Part shown: piece after piece, positions 22,836 through 23,395 of the stretch
Numbering within the stretch: position 1 is the first letter of the stretch
How the letters are laid out: each line of letters starts with the position of its first letter
IMG/VR virus record: IMGVR_UViG_3300032304_000772
Span: 1 to 23,395 of that record
Origin: a virus
Length of the DNA: 23,395 bases
Direction: 5' to 3' (one strand)
The notes under the pieces: model-generated
The model's database searches: none
Seen by the model: the letters and a program-made list of their open reading frames with translations, nothing else
What the model was told of the DNA's origin: nothing
Translations under genes and position numbers: made by a program

Positions 22836-23039
22836 ATGGTAACAGGTAAAGTAAAATGGTTTAATGATGCAAAAGGTTTTGGATTCATTACTCCTGACAA
22901 CGGTGGCGCAGATTTATTTGCACACTTTTCACAGATTAACTCGACTGGCTTTAAGAGCTTGCAAGAAGGTCAAAGTGTAAGGTTTGAAGTAACAATGGGT
23001 CAAAAAGGACAGCAGGCTAGCAACATTCAGCCAGCTTAA
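22836..23039 (+). CDS. Cold shock protein (CspA-type)
   Basis: A 67-residue single cold-shock domain. RNP1 is KGFGFI (residues 13-18) and RNP2 is LFAHF (27-31), both intact; the start [14 protein letters not shown] is canonical. It binds single-stranded RNA or DNA and acts as an RNA chaperone or antiterminator. The leader carries an 11-bp inverted repeat that sequesters the RBS. The tmRNA acceptor piece follows within about 15 bases of the stop, so the two may share a transcript. Confidence 0.95.
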
Positions 23040-23052
23040 AGAATTGTTGTAA

Positions 23053-23107
23053 TTCCTTCAAAGCGAAGGCATGTTGGACGAGGGTTCGAATCCCTCCAGG
23101 TCCACCA
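23053..23107 (+). ncRNA. ssrA: Permuted tmRNA, acceptor (3') piece
   Basis: This tRNA-like 3' half ends in an encoded CCA (23105-23107). T-arm: GAGGG-TTCGAAT-CCCTC (23080-23096). The acceptor strand CAGGTCC (23097-23103) pairs with GGGCCTG at 23201-23207, placed downstream, so the gene is circularly permuted. The third pair is G-U, the alanyl-tRNA synthetase identity element, and the discriminator base is A. CATGTTG (23070-23076) pairs with CAGCGTG (23221-23227), forming the stem next to the tRNA-like core. A CCTTC/GAAGG hairpin lies at 23055-23069. The true 5' end is uncertain. Confidence 0.88.
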
Positions 23108-23121
23108 AAAGAGGATATGAT

Positions 23122-23199
23122 ATGCAAAAATGTAGAGTATGCGACTTTATAGTAATAACACTACTAACATTTCTAATCATATTACATTTCTTTTTTTGA
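23122..23199 (+). CDS. Possible 25-residue membrane micropeptide in tmRNA intervening segment
   Basis: The segment between the two tmRNA pieces (23108-23200) contains GAGGA (23111-23115), then ATG at 23122 and 25 codons ending TGA at 23197-23199, one base before the coding piece begins. The peptide starts MQKCRVCDF, with a CxxC, and continues as a hydrophobic run (IVITLLTFLIILHFFF), a plausible membrane span. The spacing from the RBS is good. It may be a chance ORF in AT-rich spacer. Confidence 0.35.
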   Translation: MQKCRVCDFIVITLLTFLIILHFFF

Positions 23200-23200
23200 T

Positions 23201-23395
23201 GGGCCTGCATTTGGTTTCGACAGCGTGAGATAGTAGAGACGGCAACACGAGAGGCGATGGACGTAATCCAAGCAAAAAACGTAAATGCAAACGCAGATAC
23301 ATTCGACTTCAGCGCAATGAGCTTCACTGGAAACACAGTTTCTGGTAACAGCAGAGTTGCACTAGCTGCCTAAAAAACAGCGGTCCGGGGTAGGA
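23201..23395 (+). ncRNA. ssrA: Permuted tmRNA, coding (5') piece, truncated by window edge
   Basis: Begins GGGCCTGCATTTGGTTTCGACAG, the tmRNA 5' domain, with acceptor pairing to the upstream piece. The tag frame opens at the probable resume codon GCA at 23287 and runs 28 codons to TAA at 23371-23373. It starts ANADTFDFSA and ends NSRVALAA, the expected protease-recognition tail. GCA-AAC is a typical tag start. Downstream AAAAAACAGCGGTCCGGGG begins a pseudoknot-like region and is cut at 23395. The tag rescues stalled ribosomes and marks the peptide for proteolysis. Confidence 0.88.

Follow-up and report, generated by a model that had tools for sequence, protein, structure and literature searches.

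A permuted two-piece tmRNA of a T4-like phage with a predicted membrane-peptide mini-gene in its intervening sequence

The last part of IMG/VR virus record IMGVR_UViG_3300032304_000772 (23,395 bases; the whole analysed stretch is referred to as the window) carries a transfer-messenger RNA (tmRNA) gene in two pieces. The element was determined to be a phage-borne tmRNA of the beta-type lineage, circularly permuted and in two pieces. The joint reading, a two-piece tmRNA whose intervening sequence (IVS) is a self-contained mini-gene with a Shine-Dalgarno (SD) motif, a start, 25 codons and a stop, is considered very probable on the basis of sequence features. The coordinates are collected in Table 1.

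Table 1. Features of the tmRNA locus in the window
Feature	Position	Strand	Basis
Acceptor (tRNA 3') piece: inner-stem strand, T arm, acceptor 3' strand CAGGUCC, ACCA	23045..23107	+	RF04321 match start; ARAGORN 3' tRNA domain 23069-23107
Encoded CCA	23105-23107	+	ARAGORN domains
IVS, predicted to be removed in maturation; its two ends pair, lengthening the acceptor stem	23108..23200	+	Between ARAGORN domains; fold
25-codon open reading frame (ORF) in the IVS, MQKCRVCDFIVITLLTFLIILHFFF and stop, predicted single membrane-span peptide; SD AGAGGA at 23110-23115	23122..23199	+	Translation; homologues
Coding (tRNA 5' and mRNA-like) piece: acceptor 5' strand GGGCCUG, GGUUUCGAC, inner-stem strand, tag; 3' end past the contig	23201..23395	+	ARAGORN 5' tRNA domain; RF04321/RF01850
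Tag reading frame, 28 aa, ANADTFDFSAMSFTGNTVSGNSRVALAA and TAA	23287..23373	+	ARAGORN
cspA-like cold-shock protein gene, 67 aa, immediately upstream of the tmRNA	22836..23039	+	Translation; Pfam CSD 6e-30

A permuted tmRNA with the tag ANADTFDFSAMSFTGNTVSGNSRVALAA was called by ARAGORN at 23015-23464, overrunning the contig end at 23395, so that the 3' end of the tmRNA falls outside the record. The Rfam model RF04321 (tmRNA_permuted) matched 23045-23373 with 130.1 bits (gathering score 47, E 1.3e-25), and RF01850 (beta_tmRNA) gave 117.2 bits on the window (gathering score 84, E 1.9e-35). According to ARAGORN and Rfam, the acceptor piece with the T arm and CCA stands upstream of the coding piece; its start at 23045 is that of the RF04321 match and not necessarily the true 5' end. 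A previous sequence-only reading had proposed a two-piece permuted tmRNA in a T4-like phage with piece ends at 23107 (CCA) and 23201 (first G of the coding piece). This identification held, as the ends were identical to those of the ARAGORN domains, the covariance search placed both Rfam models above their gathering scores instead of giving no match, and homologues of NrdA/NrdB, an exonuclease and a baseplate-hub-lysozyme in the window characterized it as a T4-like phage fragment.

The acceptor stem GGGCCUG/CAGGUCC was paired at 7 of 7 positions, with G3-U70 as the alanine signal, and the inner stem CAGCGUG/CAUGUUG likewise at 7 of 7, including two G-U pairs; both stems named by the sequence-only reading were recovered. 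Loss of acceptor pairing in related phages, which it had also considered, was not seen: pairs 4-6 showed compensatory swaps (C-G, G-C, A-U, U-A) and the pairing was retained. The G3-U70 pair was kept in 294 of the 297 viral cases parsed by ARAGORN. The fold of the window strand reached -52.7 kcal/mol (z = -3.2), and none of 200 shuffles was equally good. The tag frame comprised 28 codons ending in ALAA and a stop, with a resume codon and a degron-like end; neither this frame nor the ORF in the spacer had been part of the earlier reading. Tags of the SFTGN type were found in more than 70 viral contigs. These results on gene form, pairing, covariation and tag frame, together with those on ORF conservation and slot diversity given below, were obtained by computation.

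The ORF within the IVS starts with ATG at 23122, and its TGA ends one base ahead of the acceptor stem. The corresponding peptide, MQKCRVCDFIVITLLTFLIILHFFF, has a strongly hydrophobic stretch and gave no profile match in Pfam or PHROGs. Homologous ORFs were detected at the same place in L083, L131, L136, L369, L370 and L371 (partial), resulting in 7 contigs with the ORF of this type, window included, and in each of them it was located in a permuted-tmRNA IVS. The ratio of nonsynonymous to synonymous polymorphism (pN/pS) of the window-type ORF was 0.25, and the variable sites favoured codon position 3 (p = 0.02). The predicted fold of the window pairs the SD with the 3' end of this ORF.

Viral permuted tmRNAs were gathered from viral contigs by seven pattern scans, resulting in 207 distinct IVSs, and the criterion was an ATG-initiated ORF that has 18 or more codons and occupies 60% or more of the IVS. 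Such ORFs were found in 55 of the 207 IVSs, whereas shuffles predict 10.0. Membrane-like peptides accounted for 32 of the 55 ORFs (0.2 expected from shuffles), and 52 had an SD-like leader. With dinucleotide shuffles of an earlier subset, ORFs were present in 39 of 143 IVSs, whereas the shuffles averaged 6.0 and did not exceed 12; the first scan, the pattern of which was free of any IVS specification, gave 18 of 63. The ORFs belonged to mutually unrelated types, namely the window type, MNDDLTxLxIGVVVVLVVFALVLL-like peptides, the YGLLY family, several soluble peptides and thioredoxin, the last being a complete 84-aa gene (PF00085, E 4e-21) within the tmRNA IVS of L077, L529 and L530. The pN/pS values were 0.25-0.48 across the ORF families tested. 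The membrane peptides of the IVSs had no match in phage genomes, Pfam or PHROGs. An IVS type could be seen with short as well as long tags, which indicates that IVS and tag recombine and that the slot acts as a site for interchangeable cargo. The IVS ends were complementary in 39 of 45 ORF-bearing and 158 of 165 other viral IVSs; since the ends pair with or without an ORF, and the SD of the window pairs with the 3' end of its ORF, the slot is edged by an RNA constraint and free in its interior. We find it fairly likely that in many aquatic phages the permuted-tmRNA spacer is an exchangeable slot for micro-genes (mostly one-span membrane peptides, once thioredoxin) or structured RNAs, which would be released or exposed by tRNA-type processing, coupling the expression of the cargo to tmRNA maturation.

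Several points weigh against a coding IVS in a functional tmRNA. The contig end cuts the tmRNA, leaving the final pseudoknot and the terminator outside the window. The motif TGATGGGC at the IVS end was specified in four of the seven viral scans and biases the stop-codon position there, and the shuffle p-values take no account of sequence relatedness. The YGLLY family alone gave p = 0.10 in the codon-position test, none of the 8 cultured-phage records examined has an IVS ORF, and the window peptide matched no cultured-phage record in the phage genome searches. Pairing with the SD region places an RNA constraint on the 3' end of the window ORF as well, and this could produce some of the apparent C-terminal conservation; when the SD-paired ORF end was trimmed, the codon-position signal persisted.

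An alternative is a functional tmRNA whose IVS is only a spacer with pairing ends, the ORF being an untranslated by-product of a T-rich hairpin. The conservation of end pairing with and without ORFs, the 152 of 207 IVSs lacking such an ORF, and the pairing of the SD in the fold would all agree with it. Such a spacer would, however, not account for ORF and membrane-peptide counts far above shuffles, the codon-position bias and low pN/pS in the families tested, the occurrence of ORF families that are unrelated to each other, with a full thioredoxin domain among them, or a stop placed directly ahead of the acceptor stem, and this explanation is therefore regarded as unlikely. It is hardly credible that the phage picked up a tmRNA copy by chance which is now a decoy or in decay and has lost its activity in rescue: the gene does lie at the contig end and tag-less phage tmRNA-like RNAs exist (DS6A, reported in PMC11915505), but the tag frame is complete here up to its ALAA end, both stems, G3-U70 and GGUUUCGAC are retained, and the changes among relatives are compensatory.

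Some further observations concern the IVSs and tags of other viral loci. Non-coding phage IVSs (L010:1001-1268, L124, L096 and related loci) form recurrent, structured-looking families, e.g. GTTTAGGGTGATATG..., GTGACGCTGGGGAAGAGTAATAGTCAGCGG... and AGTTGTCCTAGATGAAAGAAACCTC...; when 16 loci whose IVSs are structured were scanned with Rfam, no family reached the gathering score within the IVSs. In L027, L039 and L055, a small membrane-peptide ORF (MKAYQ.IVA.LIV...VFM) ends where the tmRNA acceptor piece begins. A second class of long tags (STGEVTVSGK-like), ending in FAV or LAV instead of LAA, was observed in L111, L061, L075 and L092.

The sequence-only reading had also supposed that the permutation limits the possible host, and this part was not borne out. 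With the window tmRNA as the query, blastn found no match among phage records, and the related viral tmRNA L034 was required to reach the tmRNAs of cultured phages. Permuted tmRNAs were found in cultured phages of Pseudomonas aeruginosa (UF_RH6, SM1), Stenotrophomonas (Marzo, Moby, BUCT608, DLP6) and Xanthomonas (X1, XacN1). Pseudomonas, Stenotrophomonas and Xanthomonas hosts have one-piece tmRNA. Because permuted tmRNAs occur in phages of such hosts, the permutation does not name the host. The permuted tmRNAs of L488 and L491 (Samunavirus), L487 (XacN1) and L492 (X1) are unannotated in the record stretches shown, and the Moby record places the hypothetical protein CPT_Moby_106 over its permuted tmRNA (L486:1634-1747), probably a false gene call.

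In the IQ-TREE tree of the tRNA-like domain, the phage and beta-type bacterial sequences were split from alphaproteobacteria by a branch with 100/100 support. This single branch would fit a gene taken recently from the present host of the phage, which would then name the host group. Against this, the acceptor-half pattern of the window was found in one contig only of an 85k-species bacterial genome collection, and that contig codes for phage proteins, being a T4-like phage that was binned with a bacterium; the RF01850 scores of beta bacteria were 169-296 bits vs 117 for the window; and the phages of one-piece-tmRNA hosts listed above have permuted tmRNAs as well. A recent origin from the present host is thus quite improbable. 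A T4-like phage contig (L309; G001 contig C228) was observed binned in an Alteromonadales metagenome-assembled genome, and its tmRNA IVS encodes MKPTLLYYLFEGKRF.... A single phage clade was not rejected in the approximately unbiased (AU) test (p = 0.83), with which transfer in either direction, including the acquisition from a host inferred by the sequence-only reading, would be compatible. Most of the beta bacteria were near the base of the IQ-TREE tree. The idea that bacterial beta tmRNAs descended from those of phages, which came from a FastTree tree, was dropped as unproven on account of these two results.

In bacteria of the phylum, 136 of 398 genomes gave RF04321 matches. For the class of the Pseudomonas, Stenotrophomonas and Xanthomonas hosts, 369 evenly sampled genomes gave mostly sub-threshold matches; only 5 were above the RF04321 cut-off, one of them a phage contig. 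The bacterial IVSs, delimited by ARAGORN's own domains, were short hairpin-like spacers (n = 45 parsed, including the longest spans), with a median of 28 nucleotides (nt) for the 28 parsed of the 30 best matches. None of the 17 that reached 40 nt had an ORF by the criterion used for the viral IVSs. The IVSs of four betaproteobacterial-type genes were 25-43 nt.

Permuted tmRNAs in T4-like phages have already been published, as two-piece tmRNA (ssrA) was described for the OM43 myophage Melnitz in 2022, for pelagimyophages and for other aquatic phages (PMC9004378), and with this precedent the window tmRNA is a further example. Melnitz and pelagimyophages are similar to the window in being T4-like aquatic phages with NrdA/NrdB and an ARAGORN-called, permuted two-piece tmRNA; however, for the Melnitz tmRNA a position among the alphaproteobacterial tmRNAs and a link to a glutamine riboswitch were described (PMC9004378), whereas that of the window groups with the beta type and has an SD-ATG-ORF arrangement in the IVS. 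The betaproteobacterial permuted tmRNA (RF01850; merged RF04321, PMC11915505) shares the gene order, tRNA-like domain, GGUUUCGAC, G3-U70 and a tag ending in LAA with the window, but its tags are about 10 aa (ANDERFALAA) and its IVSs about 25-43 nt without an ORF, compared with the 28-aa tag and 93-nt, putatively coding IVS here. In Menderavirus, Samunavirus, Xanthomonas X1 and XacN1, the phage tmRNA is also permuted and the IVS ends pair, while the IVSs are non-coding hairpins and the tags are 12-14 aa. Extra cargo is also known from one nominally archaeal permuted tmRNA with a tRNA-Ala gene in its IVS (PMC11915505); that is a single report of a tRNA, in contrast to the predicted protein-coding cargo recurring in many phages. 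The 2025 tmRNA database, with 79 phage tmRNAs, mentions a tRNA gene in one IVS and a repeat in another, but no IVS that codes for a protein (PMC11915505). No description of protein-coding IVS ORFs was found in the literature searched, in which the coverage of subscription journals was limited. The predicted protein-coding IVS of the window tmRNA, and the different putative mini-genes in the same slot of related phages, are new.

The following course of maturation and use is proposed. In the folded precursor, perhaps transcribed from cspA on, both tmRNA halves would together build the tRNA-like domain, with the IVS as a hairpin stacked on the acceptor stem. Cleavage in front of G23201 would fall to host RNase P and trimming back to the CCA at 23107 to the 3' processing of the host, and host alanyl-tRNA synthetase would charge the tmRNA via G3-U70. 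With host SmpB, the tmRNA may free ribosomes stalled on broken messages, and the 28-aa tag ending in ALAA, longer than usual, would mark the products for ClpXP-type proteolysis; control of stalled messages is its expected function, as the sequence-only reading had suggested. We infer these steps, and likewise peptide translation and any role of the peptide. Since an SD, a start, 25 codons and a stop all lie within the IVS, translation should be possible either on the precursor or on the spacer after its release, and the one-span membrane peptide is probably translated from one of them. Translation and tmRNA folding probably compete, because the SD and start pair with the ORF end in the predicted fold.

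If this is correct, phages place protein-coding genes in the discarded part of a structured RNA precursor, and RNase P-type processing shapes a messenger. It would also define a set of unannotated phage membrane peptides, with lysis timing, superinfection exclusion and host takeover as candidate roles. The large and mostly unannotated phage reservoir of two-piece tmRNAs with unusual tags bears on the origin and spread of the beta-type two-piece lineage.

Upstream of the tmRNA, the order of cspA followed by tmRNA was also found in L006, L029, L084 and L115, and the two genes are possibly co-transcribed; a promoter and terminator scan around the tmRNA gene gave nothing above chance. The best relatives of the window NrdB were those of Xanthomonas phage X1 and Stenotrophomonas phages. 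The fragment also has a gene for a DUF454 protein and, at 209-913, a fatty-acid desaturase gene (PF00487), which may serve the T4-like phage as an auxiliary metabolic gene.
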